The notes under the pieces were generated by a model, which saw nothing but the letters and a program-made list of their open reading frames with translations, had not been told where the DNA came from and searched no databases. A DNA stretch of 36,718 nucleotides. It comes from a bacterium (lineage in GTDB: Bacteria; Hydrothermota; DG-26; JAUXAN01). Shown here in pieces: positions 411-34,284 of this stretch. Each line of letters starts with the position of its first letter. Position 1 is the stretch's first letter. Location: the NCBI GenBank assembly GCA_030619885.1, contig JAUXAN010000026.1, forward strand, positions 1-36,718, written 5' to 3'. Made by a program: the position numbers and the translations under genes.

Positions 411-612
411 ACCAATAAGTTACCTACGAATGAGCATCTATCTATGTTCATCTAAGAAATCCCAATACTACCAAATCCAAAATCCAAATTAAATCTCAAT
501 TCCCAAATCCCAAGGATACAGATGACAGATTTGAAAATAATGACTCAATAACCAATGACCAATTTATCCGCAGTTATCCGCGTCAGCATCCGCGGTGCTC
601 CGTGTTTTTGTC
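411..612. other. Non-coding gap with low-complexity repeat remnants
   Basis: Between the terminator and the next promoter I see no gene. About 465-515 has short near-repeats built on 'aaatccaaaatccaaatt' and 'cccaaatccc' words. At 563-581 an 8-bp word, TTATCCGC, occurs twice in direct repeat and leads into the dispersed repeat at 574-606. An open frame starting at 555 runs through this repeat, but its first 32 codons look like translated non-coding DNA. Confidence 0.55.
574..606 (-). repeat. Dispersed intergenic repeat, copy A
   Basis: Reverse-complemented, these 33 bases match 15592-15624 with only two differences (G in place of A at two positions). Copy A ends seven bases before the TTGACA of the regulator promoter, joined to it by TTTGTC. 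Confidence 0.85.
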
Positions 613-640
613 TTGACACAACTGAAAAAATTACCATAAT
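613..640 (+). promoter_or_regulatory. Sigma70-type promoter of the GAF/sigma54 activator gene
   Basis: TTGACA (613-618), a 16-nt spacer and CATAAT (635-640). Transcription would start near 647, only a few bases before ATG 651 or about 13 before ATG 660. This argues against a start at 555, upstream of the promoter. Confidence 0.8.
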
Positions 641-9600: not shown

Positions 9601-9804
9601 ACATATAGATACTTATACTATATAACTTATACTTATAGTAGATGTAGTAGGGGGATTGAAAAAGTGGATAAGAAGCGCGTTCTAATGTATGGAGTGAGAT
9701 ATGACTCCACTCTCTTTGTGGATAAACTGTTAAGAAAAACTCACTTATCCACATAACAGTAATTTTCCCCCATTAATACCAGTGCTATTCACCACTTATC
9801 CACA
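9601..9804. other. Putative oriC: DnaA boxes, DnaA-trio and AT-rich unwinding region
   Basis: The dnaA-dnaN gap holds three perfect DnaA boxes: TTATCCACA at 9745-9753 and 9796-9804 on the plus strand and 9717-9725 on the minus strand. A one-mismatch box (TTATCCACT, minus) lies at 9663-9671. Reading the minus strand from that last box: 12 nt ending in CCCC, then CTACTACATCTACTA (9650-9636), then an AT-rich stretch with three ACTTATA words on the plus strand (9611, 9625, 9631). Box, C/G cluster, trio repeats and AT-rich DNA match the known order of the bacterial basal unwinding system. The box at 9796 overlaps the dnaA stop codon. Confidence 0.82.
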
Positions 9805-11100
9805 TAACGAATTTGTAATCCTTTCAATTATCTCATTCAAATTTCCGTCTTTTCTTATCAATCTCTCAATCTTCCCATATGCGTGAATGATAGTAGTATG
9901 ATCTTTACCTCCAAATTTTGCACCTATCTCCTTGAGTGACTGATTAGTCAATTCTCTCGCAAGATACATTGCCAATTGTCGTGGCAGCACGACCGAAGCA
10001 CTCCTTCTTTTTCCTCTTATAGCATCTTCCGATAAATTATAATATAGAGATACGCTCTTTACAATATCGTCTATCGTTACGCGCTTTTGTGTTCCTATAA
10101 TATCCTTGAGAACATCCTTGGATAGCTCTAAATCCACATCTACATTATCACAGGAAGCGCATGCAAGTAACCTGATCAAACATCCTTCAAGTTCTCTAAC
10201 ATTTGATTTGACATTACTGGCGATATAGAAAATCACATCATCAGGAATAAGAATATCATCGAGTTCAGCCTTTTTTCTTAATATTGCTATTCTGGTCTCT
10301 AAATTTGGAGGCTGGAGGTCAACCACCAATCCCCATTGAAATCTTGAAATTAATCTATCTTCTAAATCTGGTATCTCCTTCGGGGCTCTATCAGATGTTA
10401 CAACTATCTGTTTCCCTCCATTATGAAGAGAGTTGAATGTATGAAATATCTCTTCCTGTAAACCTTCTTTATTTGTAAGAAAATGAATATCATCTATGAG
10501 CAACACATCTCTCTTCCTATATTTATCTTTGAACTCTATAGTAGTTCTGTTCTTGATCGCTGATATCATCTCGTTCATAAAATTTTCTGTTGGAACATAA
10601 TATACCTTATAAGAAGGTCGTCTCTTTTTTACATAATTACCTATCGCCTGCATGAGATGTGTTTTACCAAGTCCGACACCTCCGTAGATGAATAATGGGT
10701 TATAAACCTTCGAAGGGGCATCGGATACTGCCTTCGCTGCTGCATGGGCAAACTTGTTACTTTCTCCGATAACAAAAGTTTCAAAAGTATATCTTTTATG
10801 AAGATTACACTCATTCTCATAGAACTCTTCATCCCGCCCGCTCACCTTTTCTTTATCTTCTTTTGGTATGAACTTTACTTTCAAATCTGTGCCAAAGACA
10901 TTCTGCATGGCATCTCTGATAGCAGGCATATACTTGCCCTGAATGAAATCAGCAAAGAAAGCAGAAGGAACTTTTACAGAGAGTAGATTATTCTCAATCT
11001 GCACTGCCTCAGTTTTTGACAGCCAGTTCACATAGAGATGCTCATCTATATTATCTCTGATATAAAGCAGAGCCTTTTGCCATGTATCGTTTAATGTCAT
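9796..11100 (-). CDS. dnaA: Chromosomal replication initiator protein DnaA
   Basis: A 434-aa initiator ATPase. Domain I (about 1-78) begins 'TWQKALLYIRDNIDEHLYVNWL'. The linker domain II is short (about 79-103). Domain III starts 'YTFETFVIGESNKFAHAAA' and has Walker A GGVGLGKT (140-147), Walker B 'VLLIDDIHFL' and sensor segments. Domain IV ends with the DNA-binding signature 'LKEIGAKFGGKDHTTIIHA', which reads DnaA boxes. The start is ATG 11100 with a GGGTGAG-type ribosome site. It is transcribed toward dnaN. The upstream region has a strong promoter and three good DnaA boxes between promoter and gene, which suggests self-repression. The short domain II makes it slightly smaller than E. coli DnaA. 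Confidence 0.98.
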   Translation of the reverse strand: MTLNDTWQKALLYIRDNIDEHLYVNWLSKTEAVQIENNLLSVKVPSAFFADFIQGKYMPAIRDAMQNVFGTDLKVKFIPKEDKEKVSGRDEEFYENECNLHKRYTFETFVIGESNKFAHAAAKAVSDAPSKVYNPLFIYGGVGLGKTHLMQAIGNYVKKRRPSYKVYYVPTENFMNEMISAIKNRTTIEFKDKYRKRDVLLIDDIHFLTNKEGLQEEIFHTFNSLHNGGKQIVVTSDRAPKEIPDLEDRLISRFQWGLVVDLQPPNLETRIAILRKKAELDDILIPDDVIFYIASNVKSNVRELEGCLIRLLACASCDNVDVDLELSKDVLKDIIGTQKRVTIDDIVKSVSLYYNLSEDAIRGKRRSASVVLPRQLAMYLARELTNQSLKEIGAKFGGKDHTTIIHAYGKIERLIRKDGNLNEIIERITNSLCG

Positions 11101-11333: not shown

Positions 11334-11362
11334 ATTCTAACATAATTAAAATTTTTTGTCAA
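11334..11362 (-). promoter_or_regulatory. dnaA promoter
   Basis: On the minus strand, a run of seven T then CTTGACA (the -35 at 11362-11357), 17-nt spacer, TAGAAT (11339-11334). This predicts a leader of roughly 225 nt before ATG 11100, the long exception in a window of short leaders. Confidence 0.8.
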
Positions 11363-11392
11363 GAAAAAAAGTTCAAAATCGAGAAAAAAACC

Positions 11393-11420
11393 TTGATTTT
11401 TATTTTTTTTTTAGTAAAAT
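11393..11420 (+). promoter_or_regulatory. lptF promoter
   Basis: TTGATT (11393-11398), 16-nt spacer made almost wholly of T, TAAAAT (11415-11420), then 8 nt to ATG 11429. The transcript would be leaderless or nearly so. Confidence 0.72.
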
Positions 11421-12670: not shown

Positions 12671-13752
12671 GTCTACTTGATAGATATATTGTATCCGACT
12701 TTTTAAAATTTCTGTTTTTAAGTTTATTGGCAATTGTAATTATATTTGTTGTGGTAGACCTGTTTGAAGATCTGGACAAGTTCATAGACAGAAAAGTGAG
12801 TGTTATGAGTGTGGTAGAATTTTATCTGTATGAGATCCCGAATATAGTGATATTGATAACACCTGTAGCACTCATAGTATCCTGTTTTCTCTCTTTGGGG
12901 ACACTTTCACGGCACAACGAACTGCTTGCTATGCGTTCAAGCGGTGTATCACTTTTCAGAATTCTCATTCCCCTGTTTATAATTGGCATCGTAGTCAGTG
13001 CTGGAGTTTTAATAATGGATGAACTCCTCATTCCATATACCAATCAAAAAAAACAAACTGTAAAAAGAGTAAAGATAGACAAAAAGCCGAAAATAAATTA
13101 TGAAAGAAGGTGGAATTTATATTACGCAGGTGAAGGGAATAGGTTCTACTTTATAGGTTTCTTTGATGCAAGAAAGAAGATCGTCAGGGATATTATGATT
13201 TCAGAATATACAGCTGACTGGAAACTCTCGCAAAGATTGGATGCAAAGAACGGTTACTGGTCAGATAGTGTATGGTGTTTCAGAGATGCTGTTGTCACAA
13301 AGTTTATACCAGGAGGAGAACAAGTGTCAGAACATTTCAAAGAGTTGAAGATGCCTCAGATAAAAGAAGTTCCCGAAGACTTTTCCAAACCTCAGAAATT
13401 TCCTGAGGGAATGAATTTTCTTGAATTGAAAAAATATTCGATGAGATTAAAAAGGAGTGGAGGGAATTATATTAAATATTTAGTAGAACTACATTACAAA
13501 CTATCATTTCCATTCACGAGTTTTATAATCATCTTATTTGGTGCACCTTTGGCGGCAAATTTAAGGAAGACAGGATTTGCTATAAGTTTTACGGCGAGTC
13601 TGACTATATGCTTTGTATACTGGGGTGTGATACAGATATTTCGATCTTTTGGACAGAATGGGGTTTTGCCTCCCAGTATATCTTTGTGGATTCCAAACAT
13701 AATATTCTTATCCGGTGGGATTTACTTATTATACACAACAGCAAAGAAATAG
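12667..13752 (+). CDS. lptG: LptG-like permease of the lipopolysaccharide transport complex
   Basis: A 361-aa partner of the preceding LptF. N-terminal 'LLDRYIVSDFLKFLFLSLLAIVIIFVVVDLFEDLDKFID' is typical of LptG; 'NELLAMRSSGVSLFRI' is the coupling-helix region that contacts the LptB ATPase. There are six predicted TM segments with a periplasmic middle domain and a C-terminal 'PFTSFIIILFGAPLAANLRKTG'. It overlaps lptF by 4 nt. lptB, lptA and lptC are not in the window. The stop codon overlaps the 3' end of the convergent tRNA-Thr gene by 2 nt, and no terminator separates them. Confidence 0.92.
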   Translation: MSLLDRYIVSDFLKFLFLSLLAIVIIFVVVDLFEDLDKFIDRKVSVMSVVEFYLYEIPNIVILITPVALIVSCFLSLGTLSRHNELLAMRSSGVSLFRILIPLFIIGIVVSAGVLIMDELLIPYTNQKKQTVKRVKIDKKPKINYERRWNLYYAGEGNRFYFIGFFDARKKIVRDIMISEYTADWKLSQRLDAKNGYWSDSVWCFRDAVVTKFIPGGEQVSEHFKELKMPQIKEVPEDFSKPQKFPEGMNFLELKKYSMRLKRSGGNYIKYLVELHYKLSFPFTSFIIILFGAPLAANLRKTGFAISFTASLTICFVYWGVIQIFRSFGQNGVLPPSISLWIPNIIFLSGGIYLLYTTAKK

Positions 13753-13822
13753 CCGACGACCCGATTTGAACGGGTGACCTGCGGTTTACGAAACCGCTGC
13801 TCTACCACTGAGCTACGCCGGC
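13751..13822 (-). tRNA. tRNA-Thr (anticodon CGU)
   Basis: A 72-nt cloverleaf on the minus strand: acceptor GCCGGCG/CGTCGGC with one G-U pair, D arm 'GCTCAGTGGTAGAGC', anticodon stem GCGGT/ACCGC around the loop TTCGTAA (anticodon CGT), T arm with GTTCAAATC. The discriminator is U and no CCA is encoded. Its 3' end overlaps the lptG stop codon. Confidence 0.95.
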
Positions 13823-13831
13823 ATCTTTTGG

Positions 13832-13859
13832 ATTTTACCATCCCACTAATTTTTGTCAA
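13832..13859 (-). promoter_or_regulatory. tRNA-Thr promoter
   Basis: Minus strand: seven T residues, CTTGACA (the -35 at 13859-13854), 16-nt spacer, TAAAAT (13837-13832), then 9 nt to the tRNA 5' end. Confidence 0.85.
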
Positions 13860-13987
13860 GAAAAAAAACCGCAGAGGCGCAGAATTCACAAAGAAAAGGC
13901 AGAATAAAAAAACAATTGAAAAATCTCTGTGTTTCTTCTGTAATCTCAGTGAATTCCCGTACGGGTCTGCAACCGTGTCTTTTTTTC
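13860..13987. repeat. Degenerate dispersed repeat bracketed by two outward promoters
   Basis: This 128-nt segment lies exactly between the -35 boxes of the tRNA-Thr and tRNA-Gly promoters. Its ends are inverted (GAAAAAAA at the left, TTTTTTTC at the right). Inside are 'ccgcagaggcgcaga', 'tctctgtgtttcttctgtaa' and the 10-bp palindrome CCCGTACGGG (13956-13965). The 'gcagaggcgcag' type of word recalls degenerate intergenic repeats common in uncultured bacterial genomes. No credible gene is seen. Confidence 0.6.
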
Positions 13988-14016
13988 TTGACAAAGTATG
14001 AAGAAATTGCAATAAT
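13988..14016 (+). promoter_or_regulatory. tRNA-Gly promoter
   Basis: Seven T, CTTGACA (the -35 at 13988-13993), 17-nt spacer, AATAAT (14011-14016), then 9 nt to the tRNA 5' end at 14026. Confidence 0.87.
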
Positions 14017-14025
14017 GGATTAAAA

Positions 14026-14097
14026 GCGGGAGTAGCTCAGTGGTAGAGCACCACCTTGCCAAGGTGGGAGTCGTGGGTTCAAATCCCATCTCCCGCT
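14026..14097 (+). tRNA. tRNA-Gly (anticodon GCC)
   Basis: A 72-nt cloverleaf: acceptor GCGGGAG/CTCCCGC, D arm 'GCTCAGTGGTAGAGC', anticodon stem CCACC/GGTGG around TTGCCAA (anticodon GCC), T arm GTGGGTTCAAATCCCAT. The discriminator is U and no CCA is encoded. Confidence 0.96.
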
Positions 14098-14194
14098 CTT
14101 TGTCCCCACCCATCCAAAGGGATATGTAAGCCATTTTAAAAATAGGGACATAGATAAGAACTGGGTAGAGTAGTGACGGATGTTATCGTGAGTT

Positions 14195-14267
14195 TGGGCC
14201 CGGAAGGACTTGAACCTCCGACCAACTGATTATGAGTCAGCCGCTCTACCAACTGAGCTACGGGCCC
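14195..14267 (-). tRNA. tRNA with CAU anticodon (elongator Met, or Ile2 if lysidine-modified)
   Basis: A 73-nt cloverleaf on the minus strand: acceptor GGGCCCG/CGGGCCC, D arm 'GCTCAGTTGGTAGAGC', anticodon stem GCTGA/TCAGT around CTCATAA (anticodon CAT), T arm GGAGGTTCAAGTCCTTC, discriminator A, no encoded CCA. The first acceptor pair (G-C) excludes the usual mismatched initiator tRNA. Sequence reading alone does not separate elongator Met from tRNA-Ile2 needing TilS. Confidence 0.93.
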
Positions 14268-14281
14268 CTGCTATTTTTAGT

Positions 14282-14310
14282 AATAGAATAAAAAATTTAC
14301 ATTTTGTCAA
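14282..14310 (-). promoter_or_regulatory. Promoter of the CAU-anticodon tRNA
   Basis: Minus strand: seven T, CTTGACA (the -35 at 14310-14305), then a weak -10 (TCTATT with 17-nt spacing, or TATTCT with 14). Confidence 0.65.
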
Positions 14311-14405
14311 GAAAAAAACACGAGAGTACGGGGTCAGTCCACCAAATTACAAATTACGAGATTGCCACCCCCAAAAGGTCGGGGTCGCAATGACATTCTC
14401 GGCTC
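14311..14405. repeat. Dispersed repeat of the ATTGC...GCAAT type between divergent promoters
   Basis: The core is a nested inverted repeat: CGAGA (14357-14361) with TCTCG (14397-14401), and ATTGC (14361-14365) with GCAAT (14387-14391), with ACCCC/GGGGT inside. The 'GAGATTGCCAC ... TCGCAATGAC' shape matches widespread palindromic intergenic repeats in many bacterial phyla. The segment fills the space between the tRNA and radical SAM -35 boxes. Confidence 0.72.
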
Positions 14406-15185: not shown

Positions 15186-15593
15186 ATGAAGGTAAATTCA
15201 GAAACCACGAGACAGCCCCGCCTTACAGTTGACATCATAATCGAATATGGAGATGGGATAATTCTCATAAAAAGAAAGAACCCCCCTTATGGATGGGCAA
15301 TCCCTGGCGGATTCGTGGATTACGGCGAAACCGTAGAAGAATCTGCAAAAAGAGAAGCGAAGGAGGAAACATCTTTAGATATTGAAAAATTAAGACAGTT
15401 CAGAGTCTATTCAGATCCGAACAGAGACCCACGTGGTCACACCGTTTCGATCGTTTTCACAGCAAGGGCAACGGGAACACCTAAAGCCTCTGATGATGCC
15501 AAAGAATTGGGAGTATTCAAAAAAGATAACCTCCCAGCAGAGATAGCCTTCGACCATCGAAAGATTTTAAACGATTATTTTCAAGAAAAATAA
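15186..15593 (+). CDS. Nudix hydrolase
   Basis: A 135-aa phosphohydrolase with a near-complete Nudix box, [20 protein letters not shown] followed by ET (Gx5Ex7REUxEE pattern; the usual Gly after EE is Thr). '[12 protein letters not shown]' and '[19 protein letters not shown]' resemble ADP-ribose or 8-oxo-dGTP/NADH-type pyrophosphatases; the 'DPRGH' segment is typical of the ADP-ribose pyrophosphatase-like group. It is probably cotranscribed with the radical SAM gene just upstream (1-nt gap). Its TAA stop lies at the edge of dispersed repeat copy B. Confidence 0.93.
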
Positions 15594-15624
15594 CACGGAG
15601 CACCACGGATGCTGACACGGATAA
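15592..15624 (+). repeat. Dispersed intergenic repeat, copy B
   Basis: The 33 bases match copy A (574-606, opposite strand) except at two positions. It starts within the Nudix stop codon and runs into the hairpin at 15626. Confidence 0.85.
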
Positions 15625-18198: not shown

Positions 18199-18226
18199 AG
18201 TTTAGTTAATAAAAAGATTTTGTCAA
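18199..18226 (-). promoter_or_regulatory. Promoter of the sugar transferase - HAD - acpS operon
   Basis: Minus strand: TTTTTCTCTTGACA with -35 at 18226-18221, 16-nt spacer, TAAACT (18204-18199), then 9 nt to ATG 18189. Confidence 0.68.
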
Positions 18227-18275
18227 GAGAAAAATGGGGTTAAAAATCTGTGTTAATCTGCGGGTTTCTTTTTTC
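18227..18275. repeat. Short dispersed-repeat segment between divergent -35 boxes
   Basis: Forty-nine bases fill the space between the outward-facing -35 hexamers of the sugar transferase and ftsK genes. The core 'aaaaatctgtgttaatctgcggg' is of the same 'tctgtg/ctgcgg' type as the other dispersed repeats. The ends are GAGAAAAA and TTTTTTC. Confidence 0.55.
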
Positions 18276-18304
18276 TTGACTTTGCAATCAATTTTTAATA
18301 TTAT
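18276..18304 (+). promoter_or_regulatory. ftsK promoter
   Basis: TTTTTTC then TTGACT (18276-18281), 17-nt spacer, TATTAT (18299-18304), then 8 nt to ATG 18313: a predicted leaderless transcript. Confidence 0.8.
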
Positions 18305-23620: not shown

Positions 23621-23678
23621 GTATCGATGATAGCCCTGGGAAAACTGCTCACGGAACTGTTCATTAAGTTGTTTTTTC

Positions 23679-23707
23679 TTGACAAATTTTGCAATGAATA
23701 CTAAAAT
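23679..23707 (+). promoter_or_regulatory. Promoter of the porV-like - yajC - def - fmt - rsmB operon
   Basis: Six T, C, TTGACA (23679-23684), 17-nt spacer, TAAAAT (23702-23707). The start point is near 23714, giving a short leader that carries GGGAGG at 23721-23726. Confidence 0.87.
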
Positions 23708-27742: not shown

Positions 27743-27880
27743 ACACGAATGTTCATTCACTCCGCACTTACCTGCCCGCCGCTTTGCTTTGGCAGGCGGG
27801 TGCATAAGTAGGGGCGGGTTGGACAAATTGCACGAATTTCTTTTATTCTTCTTTTTGAGAATTTTTTATATTATTCGTGT
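27743..27880. repeat. Intergenic palindromic repeat cluster
   Basis: ACACGAAT (27743-27750) and ATTCGTGT (27873-27880) are inverted at the edges. Inside is a GC-rich hairpin with two mutually exclusive pairings: CCTGCC/GGCAGG (27771-27776, 27791-27796) or CCCGCC/GGCGGG (27775-27780, 27795-27800). 'acttac'/'ataagt' lies outside it. No gene is seen in the 235-nt gap. Confidence 0.68.
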
Positions 27881-27902
27881 GATTTATGGTTGCAATTTTT
27901 CC

Positions 27903-27930
27903 TTGACAAGATTTTTAATAATATTATATT
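27903..27930 (+). promoter_or_regulatory. pilC promoter
   Basis: TTTTTCC then TTGACA (27903-27908), 16-nt spacer, TATATT (27925-27930). The leader is about 30 nt and carries AAAGGAGGTG just before ATG 27967. Confidence 0.85.
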
Positions 27931-27966: not shown

Positions 27967-29175
27967 ATGCCGGTTTATGTATGGAAAGGCAGAACACCTA
28001 CAGGAATAGCATCCTCAGGTGAATTGGCCGCAAAGTCAGAAGCGGAGGTCATTTCACATCTCCGTGCAAGAAAGATAATACCCACCTCTGTTAAAACTAA
28101 ACCCAGAGAGATTACTATACCGTTCCTTGGCGGTAAGGTAGGAACGAAGGATCTTGCTGTGTTTACCCGACAGTTTGCCACTATGATAAACGCAGGGCTT
28201 CCCTTGATGCAATGTCTGGACATACAGACACAGCAGGCTACAAACCCTGTGCTCAAAAAAGGTCTAGGTCAGGTGATGACAGATGTAGAAAGTGGGTCAA
28301 CCCTCGCGGAATCTCTGCGTAAACAGGATAAGATTTTTACCGATCTATATGTTAATATGGTTGATGCAGGTGAAGCAGGTGGTGCACTCGATGTCATCTT
28401 GACCAGATTGGCAGGGTATTTAGAGAAATCGGCGGAATTGGCGAGAAAGATAAAAAGTGCGATGATATATCCTGTAATGATTACTGGTGTTGCCCTAATG
28501 GCAACTCTCGCACTGCTCATATTCGTGATACCTATCTTTGCAGGAATGTTTGAATCCTTCGGACAGGAACTTCCAGCTCCCACCAGAATCGTAATGAAAT
28601 TGAGTGACATAGTCCGTGGCTACTGGTGGGTGATATTTGCCGTGTTGATAGCTCTCTTCATTGGATTTCGGACATGGAAAAAGACTTCCGGAGGGGAGAG
28701 CGTAATTGACAGAATGAAGTTGAAGATTCCAGTGGCTGGCACCCTCGTTCGAAAACAGGTGATCGCAAGGTTCGCCCGTACCCTTGCGACACTCCTATCC
28801 AGTGGTGTTCCTATATTAGATGCCCTTGAGATAACAGCGAAAACATCAGGGAATAAACTCGTAGAAGATTCGATAATGGAAGCAAGGAGTTCTATAGCAG
28901 GTGGTGAAACCATTGCAGAGCCACTCAAAAATGTGGGCGTATTCCCTCCTATGGTTACACAGATGATCGCCATTGGTGAAGCAGCAGGAAATCTCGATGA
29001 TATGTTAAACAAAGTTGCTGATTTCTACGATTCGGAGGTGGATACCGCTGTGGAAGGTCTTATGTCAGCACTTGAACCGGTAATAATGATCTTATTGGGC
29101 CTCGTAATCGGTGGTATGGTAATGGCGATGTACCTGCCCATATTCAAGATGGTGACACTTATAAGTGGAGATTAA
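27967..29175 (+). CDS. pilC: Type IV pilus inner-membrane platform protein PilC (GspF family)
   Basis: A 402-aa polytopic protein that anchors the pilus assembly motor. It has the N-terminal 'PVYVWKGRTPTGIASSGELAAKSEAEVISHLRARKIIPTSV' region, then two GspF domains, each with a long helix bundle and TM: first 'LAVFTRQFATMINAGLPLMQCLD' with TM 'IYPVMITGVALMATLALLIFVI', second 'VIARFARTLATLLSSGVPILDALEIT' with a C-terminal TM 'EPVIMILLGLVIGGMVMAMYLPIF'. The length is normal. It has a strong ribosome site. Pilus ATPases (pilB, pilT) are not adjacent. A terminator-like structure follows, then a PilS-like kinase. Confidence 0.95.
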   Translation: MPVYVWKGRTPTGIASSGELAAKSEAEVISHLRARKIIPTSVKTKPREITIPFLGGKVGTKDLAVFTRQFATMINAGLPLMQCLDIQTQQATNPVLKKGLGQVMTDVESGSTLAESLRKQDKIFTDLYVNMVDAGEAGGALDVILTRLAGYLEKSAELARKIKSAMIYPVMITGVALMATLALLIFVIPIFAGMFESFGQELPAPTRIVMKLSDIVRGYWWVIFAVLIALFIGFRTWKKTSGGESVIDRMKLKIPVAGTLVRKQVIARFARTLATLLSSGVPILDALEITAKTSGNKLVEDSIMEARSSIAGGETIAEPLKNVGVFPPMVTQMIAIGEAAGNLDDMLNKVADFYDSEVDTAVEGLMSALEPVIMILLGLVIGGMVMAMYLPIFKMVTLISGD

Positions 29176-34207: not shown

Positions 34208-34236
34208 ATAATAATAATTGAAAGTCAATCTGTCAA
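34208..34236 (-). promoter_or_regulatory. Promoter of the CAP-domain gene
   Basis: Minus strand: TTCTTTC then TTGACA (34236-34231), 17-nt spacer, TATTAT (34213-34208), then 8 nt to ATG 34199. Confidence 0.83.
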
Positions 34237-34255
34237 GAAAGAAGAAACCACAGCA

Positions 34256-34284
34256 TTGACATTCAGGTCGATTTTTGCTATATT
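34256..34284 (+). promoter_or_regulatory. Promoter of the amrS-like gene
   Basis: TTGACA (34256-34261), 17-nt spacer, TATATT (34279-34284), then 8 nt to ATG 34293. This mirrors the divergent CAP promoter, with only 19 nt between the two -35 boxes. Confidence 0.88.

Follow-up and report, generated by a model that had tools for sequence, protein, structure and literature searches.

Repeats and promoter boxes in the window

The window, i.e., the whole stretch of DNA analysed here (36,718 nucleotides), is contig 3 of a WOR-3/Stahlbacteria MAG (2.46 Mb, 86 contigs). Between its divergent tRNA-Thr and tRNA-Gly genes, two outward-facing -35 boxes, with T8 on the minus side and T7 on the plus side, surround a repeat-like core (Table 1), as reported in the first-pass annotation of this DNA. 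Both boxes have a -10 at 16–17 nt and are good predicted promoters of the tRNA genes; the 140-nt gap (13854–13993), folded as a single strand, gave −40.1 kcal/mol (z = −5.0). The same layout was recovered in the gap 18221–18281, except that its right box reads TTGACT and not TTGACA, and the repeat edges at 596–618 and 14305–14322 were as originally described. Only a short remnant was found at 34231–34261, where a one-sided pattern had been proposed, and the edge indicated at 11357–11398 has the T-tract and CTTGACA but no recognisable dispersed repeat.

A 36-nt repeat is present twice in the window as an inverted pair (574–609 plus, 15624–15589 minus, 92% identity). Beyond the repeat, both copies continue with a T-tract and CTTGA; from there they differ, one entering a promoter-like stretch and the other not. 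The sigma-54 activator ORF next to the first copy is listed as 555–2129, its true start being probably further downstream. The proposal that the paired -35 boxes are terminal inverted repeats of a single unit was not borne out: in the two divergent gaps, each outward box belongs to the promoter of the adjacent gene, in tandem gaps the -35 is found on one side only, and the other end, as seen in the genus UBA3073, is different (T(n)CTTGA^TTGCATAGGAAANTATA, with ^ marking the junction here and below).

Table 1. Repeat ends, promoters and tRNA genes in the window.
Feature	Position	Strand	Details
Repeat copy TTATCCGCGTCAGCATCCGCGGTGCTCCGTGTTTTT ending GTCTTGA^CA	574–618	+	upstream of sigma-54 activator gene
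T-tract CTTGACA promoter of minus-strand genes (dnaA, 9796–11100)	11357–11370	-	no recognisable repeat
tRNA-Thr gene	13751–13822	-	
Element 3' end towards tRNA-Thr, ...CTGCGG-T8-CTTGACA	13854–13868	-	-35 13859–13854; -10 TAAAAT 13837–13832
Repeat core (CCGCAGAGGCGCAGAATTCAC...GTGAATTCCCGTACGGGTCTGC) able to form a hairpin, flanked by the outward -35 boxes	13869–13979	.	strong fold of gap
T7-CTTGACA end towards tRNA-Gly	13980–13993	+	-35 TTGACA 13988–13993; -10 AATAAT 14011–14016 with TG
tRNA-Gly gene	14026–14098	+	
GTG-T7-CTTGACA end towards tRNA-Met gene (14195–14267, minus)	14305–14322	-	
Second copy of the 574–618 repeat	15581–15624	-	ends T-tract and CTTGA, then unrelated CTTGA^AAATAATCG; not a promoter position
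Short divergent gap, core AATCTGTGTTAATCTGCGGG	18221–18281	.	TTGACA minus 18226–18221; T6-CTTGACT plus, TTGACT 18276–18281
T-tract CTTGACA promoter	23673–23684	+	no recognisable repeat
Repeat end ATTCGTGTGATTTATGGTTGCAATTTTTCCTTGACA	27873–27908	+	upstream of gene at 27967
Remnant between divergent promoters	34231–34261	.	GTGGTTTCTTCTTTCTTGACA on minus, TTGACA minus 34236–34231; TTGACA plus 34256–34261

Repeats upstream of promoters in the source genome

Motif counts in the genome of the window were compared with those of the reversed pattern as background control. The combination of T-tract and CTTGACA (TTTTCTTGACA) was found 115 times against 3, and GTGGN{3,12}TTTTNTTGACA 47 times against 0. 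The distance from GTGG to TTGAC peaked at 11 nt (24 cases) and 12 nt (10 cases), compared with about 2.6 per offset. Among the 95 TTTTCTTGACA sites listed, most had a dispersed repeat upstream, with several unrelated cores (CTCTGTGG, AATCTGTGG, ATTCGTGG and a ACTCGGTACATAGCACCTCG tandem ending in GGTCGAT). Nested palindromes (CCCCGCACTTATGCATAAGTGCGGGG, CCCCGTTAGATA..TATCTAACGGGG, CCATACGGATCCGTATGG) were observed within repeat cores at L053, L069, L087, L103 and many other loci, where repeats seem to have been inserted in repeats. At six loci of G000 (L029, L030, L045, L056, L072 and L077), a ACTCGGTACATAGCACCTCGTTTT-type tandem ends near GATAGGTCGATTTTTCTTGACA or a variant of it, representing a further unrelated family sharing the same boundary.

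The analysis was performed on stretches around sites, and the long ones were picked for containing repeat ends, blind to what comes after the end beyond GTGGTTTCTT; in this sample, whose repeat density is therefore not representative of the genome, TTGAC was located 9–12 nt from 24 of 75 intergenic repeat ends (0.7 expected), and 20 of the 81 TTGACA promoters with a -10 were repeat-adjacent. The latter had 76% T at positions -11 to -2 before the box, versus 39% in the others. Where a repeat end was followed by NTTGA (78 cases), the next base was C in 70.

Three tandem paralogues on contig 48 are alike from TTTTCTTGACA onward and carry three unrelated upstream sequences, of which two are repeats (ATTCGTGG and CTCTGTGG) and the third is of another kind; a paralogue pair on contigs 50 and 60 behaves in the same way. 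The trio (L052, L053 and L054) consists of small genes, PilZ-like by eye (RRRYKR..DISGGG), and their 5' leader may contain an old element preserved in full (CTTGATTGCATAAGTATA...GTTGCATTTTTTCTTGA). A scan of this genome for left ends retrieved only a handful of candidates, intact left ends being rare.

Filled and empty sites in the genus UBA3073

The nearest informative comparison was provided by the genus UBA3073 (genomes G008, G145 and G146), which belongs to the same phylum as the window genome but to a different family; both the complete anatomy of the elements and the comparison of empty with filled sites come from this genus and not from the window's own family. Four copies in G008 are 98.3–99.6% identical over 231 nt inside and 24–57% outside. 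On the left, their junction is T(n)CTTGA followed by TTGCATAGGAAACTATA, eroded in one copy; on the right, all four stop at ...T7CTTGA, the end reading GTGGTAATTTTTTTCTTGA and then the CA of four different promoters, each with its -10 in place. A second family, in G146 and G145 (GTGGTGTCTTTTTTC), is present in about 16 copies, and CTTGAC follows in nearly every case. The left-end motif CTTGATNGCATARGRAANTATA, allowing at most two mismatches, matched 76 times in the three genomes and 0 times in the reversed control, with T-tracts of varying length before it and several different cores after it. The right T-tract is constant among insertions and the left one variable, which shows that the element brings the right T-tract with it; a T-tract arising as target duplication was rejected on the same ground. 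The base after CTTGAC can be A, T or G, so that the sixth base of the -35 is supplied by the target.

The elements are short, non-coding and multi-copy with defined ends, as MITEs are, but the ends are unlike each other (TTGCATAGGAAACTA.. vs. ..TTTTTTTCTTGA) and inverted repeats are subterminal only, not at the very ends. With the exception of L195, CTTGA stands immediately 5' of the left end, like the fixed target of IS200/IS605 or REP/RAYT elements; in almost every copy of the two main families, the right foot of the hairpin is GTGG and not the REP tag GTAG. L195 has CAA on both sides rather than CTTGA. Some repeat ends lie away from promoters (L195 and 15581–15624 in the window), so targeting is not confined strictly to promoters. 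In G007, from another family of the phylum, repeats end in GTGGCAAAATTTTCTTGACA or GTGGCTAATTTTTCTTGACA in place of GTGGTTTC-T6, which suggests that a parallel family of elements shares this target.

Gene names at the compared loci were assigned by eye from translated starts. At the promoter of a TetR-like gene, the G146 site (L214) is empty, reading ...GGTGAATGTCTTTTTTTGAAAATTTTTTCTTGA^CAAATTGCAAATC, and so is that of G145 (L217), at CTTGA^CA; the G008 site (L200) is filled, reading ...GGTGAATGTCATTTTTTCAAATTTTTTTCCTTGA^(270 nt ending GTGGTAATTTTTTTCTTGA)^CAAATTGCAAATTTTG. The junctions are thereby T6-CTTGA^CA... in two species and T7C-CTTGA^TCGCATAGGAAAC...GTGGTAATTTTTTT-CTTGA^CA... in the third, which is the orthologous empty-versus-filled comparison expected of a mobile MITE. 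By BLAST of L200 against L214, the left segment ends at position 1168 of L200 and the right one resumes at 1425, the two overlapping by 14 nt in L214 (1425–1438), i.e., exactly the duplicated T-tract and CTTGA. Both flanks are kept right up to the duplicated CTTGA at this one locus, the other comparisons being of absence or of a different element. An element in one species and the same -35 and -10 without it in another were observed for L265/L271, L210/L258 (both flanks syntenic), L201/L224, and L207 versus L212/L216. The alaS promoter is the same in three species and carries three different repeats, whereas L267/L274 and L268/L273 show different cores at the same site in two species. At least once a new element lies beside an older one, so that hits pile up on the upstream side.

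One could suppose that target specificity is absent, the intergenic space being saturated with repeats and selection merely guarding the upstream edge of the promoter. Intergenic regions are indeed dense with nested palindromic repeats, but selection alone would not be expected to give a fixed spacing of 11–12 nt, near-identical copies that break off abruptly at CTTGA, or an insert with CTTGA on either side; we therefore regard this reading as very unlikely and rejected selection as the sole cause of the boundary. Ectopic recombination or gene conversion, with the T-tract and CTTGACA as a patch of homology through which upstream regions are swapped without transposition, would agree with the same promoter having different cores in related species (L267/L274, L268/L273) and in paralogues, and may account for core swapping. 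As a general explanation it seems to us scarcely probable, since L200, compared with L214, keeps the old left flank up to CTTGA with 270 nt added, and the conserved left end TTGCATAGGAAANTATA comes straight after a target-like T(n)CTTGA.

The first-pass annotation had offered two alternatives, either that repeats preferentially sit between divergent promoters or that they are small non-autonomous mobile units supplying outward -35 elements, and had suggested that the latter could be a new way of distributing promoters. Each alternative holds in part: the repeats are mobile, with abrupt ends and a 3' end carrying the T-tract and CTTGA, but the promoter is older than the element. The distribution of new promoters is unsupported, since at several loci empty orthologues already hold TTGACA and a -10 at the same place. 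A MITE with a -35 at each end, landing anywhere and giving a new promoter where a -10 happens to follow, would explain why copies end in T6-7CTTGA and why a few ends are not at promoters. Against it, all four near-identical G008 copies have a -10 at the proper spacing, the varying base after CTTGAC shows that the target provides the last base of the -35, and in G036, of the same phylum and with 100 TTTTCTTGACA sites, most of the 15 examined have no recognisable repeat. Such a MITE is thus highly improbable, and it was rejected because the promoter is kept in empty orthologues; nor did we find a promoter created where none was, as with Correia-type elements. Element-free orthologues with TTGACA and a -10, together with the repeat-poor sites of G036, argue instead for an element restoring the promoter that it splits. 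Repeats absent or different before the same -35 had been foreseen as a refutation of mobile units, and this was found; the same refutation implied no alignment boundary near the T tract, on the contrary the boundary is sharp.

A proposed insertion route and its relation to known systems

From these comparisons we consider it probable that non-autonomous mobile elements of about 50–300 nt target the -35 hexamer of ordinary promoters, insert at a specific site within it and rebuild it. In UBA3073, the comparisons show T(n)CTTGA^CA as the target, the -35 box being split there. The left junction in that genus is T(n)CTTGA^TTGCATAGGAAANTATA and leads into a core that can form a hairpin and differs from family to family (CCACAGAG..CTCTGTGG, CACGAAT..ATTCGTGG and others); the right end is GTGG-N4-T6/7-CTTGA^CA, its T-tract being brought by the element. 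Insertion thus strands the upstream half of the -35 on the left, while the element's own end remakes TTGACA at an unchanged distance from the -10; the junction of an excised circle would read GTGG-N4-T6-CTTGA^TTGCATAGGAAA. The same process presumably produced the arrangement of repeat, T-tract and -35 in the window's own genome, and insertion would be tolerated because the promoter survives. The hairpin and T-tract just before the promoter resemble an intrinsic terminator and may shield it from upstream transcription, an idea that is weaker for the short natural copy L065, given its fold (−9.4 kcal/mol, z −1.7).

CTTGA on both sides may reflect either a 5-bp duplication of the target or, with the geometry of IS200/IS605-type elements, a target next to an element whose end has the same sequence; L195, with its CAA on both sides, leans towards target-site duplication over a Y1 mechanism. 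The weakest part of the proposal concerns the mobiliser, which could tentatively be a single-strand HUH/Y1 transposase (IS200/IS605, REP or TIR type) cutting after CTTGA, in keeping with the geometry of the junctions, although we hold this to be appreciably less likely than its opposite. Y1 genes were present in all six genomes searched individually. Across 147 genomes, their number did not track that of the sites, and genomes of family f10 had up to 13 Y1 genes and 0–1 sites; a Y1/RAYT enzyme as proven mobiliser was rejected, gene numbers not following site numbers. The Y1 loci examined were flanked by inverted repeats other than those of the element, and no transposase-enclosing element was found there. 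In G000, G146, G008 and G007, long inverted repeats (GGGGTCAGGC... / ...GCCTGACCCC, or GGGGACGGTTCTC) flank the Y1/RAYT genes at L231, L234, L247, L252, L253, L255 and L257, an arrangement like that of published TIRtrons, the left repeat being directly upstream of a CTTGAC box in the transposase gene's own promoter.

To do little damage, mobile elements usually settle in intergenic DNA or at the ends of tRNA genes. Insertion into the promoter box in greatest use, followed by its reconstruction, would solve the problem differently and, if so, would allow such elements to reshape the upstream sequence of a sizeable fraction of promoters, offering a testable route by which promoters gain T-tracts. 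Intergenic repeats that halt at a T tract elsewhere in the phylum might be explained in the same way. Whether the WOR-3 phylum has a class of mobile elements using the vegetative -35 box as attachment site and carrying a replacement half-box, a T-tract and a terminator-like hairpin is, in our judgement, evenly balanced; each landing would leave the promoter functional, perhaps also insulated, and provide a new site for further landings, and unrelated repeat families could stack on the same promoters. In a pattern scan of named genomes, WOR-3/Stahlbacteria loci had a repeat context in most cases, and scattered matches in other phyla had none.

In the open-access literature, which makes the following negative results weak evidence, a search for the repeat words returned one unrelated paper only, nothing relevant was retrieved on promoters as insertion targets or on repeats of WOR-3/Stahlbacteria, and no description was found of an element targeting and restoring a -35 box. 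Small repeats bearing promoters are already known, such as CREE and MITEAba12, the targeting of the -35 and its restoration being the part that we did not find described. In the CREE of Neisseria, the Black promoter has its -35 within the element, and the Snyder promoter combines a native -35 with a -10 within the element (PMC2649163). CREE are likewise small non-coding repeats upstream of genes, able to complete promoters, but they are bounded by inverted repeats, their target is TA (or CA) and their promoters are made by chance, whereas here the ends are unlike each other and the target is the -35, rebuilt by the element. MITEAba12 is a non-autonomous element of about 110 nt with outward sigma-70 promoters (PMC6382973), similar in these respects to ours; it shares terminal inverted repeats with ISAba12 and makes 9-bp target duplications without sequence trend, while our elements are specific for CTTGA and the Y1 loci examined revealed no partner IS.

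ISDra2 inserts 3' of 5'-TTGAT next to its left end (PMC2806898). Insertion 3' of a fixed pentanucleotide, asymmetric ends and subterminal inverted repeats are features that our elements share with IS200/IS605 (ISDra2, IS608), REP/RAYT and TIR/TIRYT systems, and the RAYT genes between long inverted repeats recall TIRtrons (PMC3733652). The repeats described here differ from IS200/IS605 and REP/RAYT in that the Y1 genes have different inverted repeats, and the number of sites does not vary with that of Y1 genes. Genomic islands integrate into tRNA genes and carry a cut-off piece of the host feature. The restoration of a host feature from such a carried piece is common to both systems, but here the feature is the -35 box of a promoter and the element is tiny, non-coding and present in many copies.
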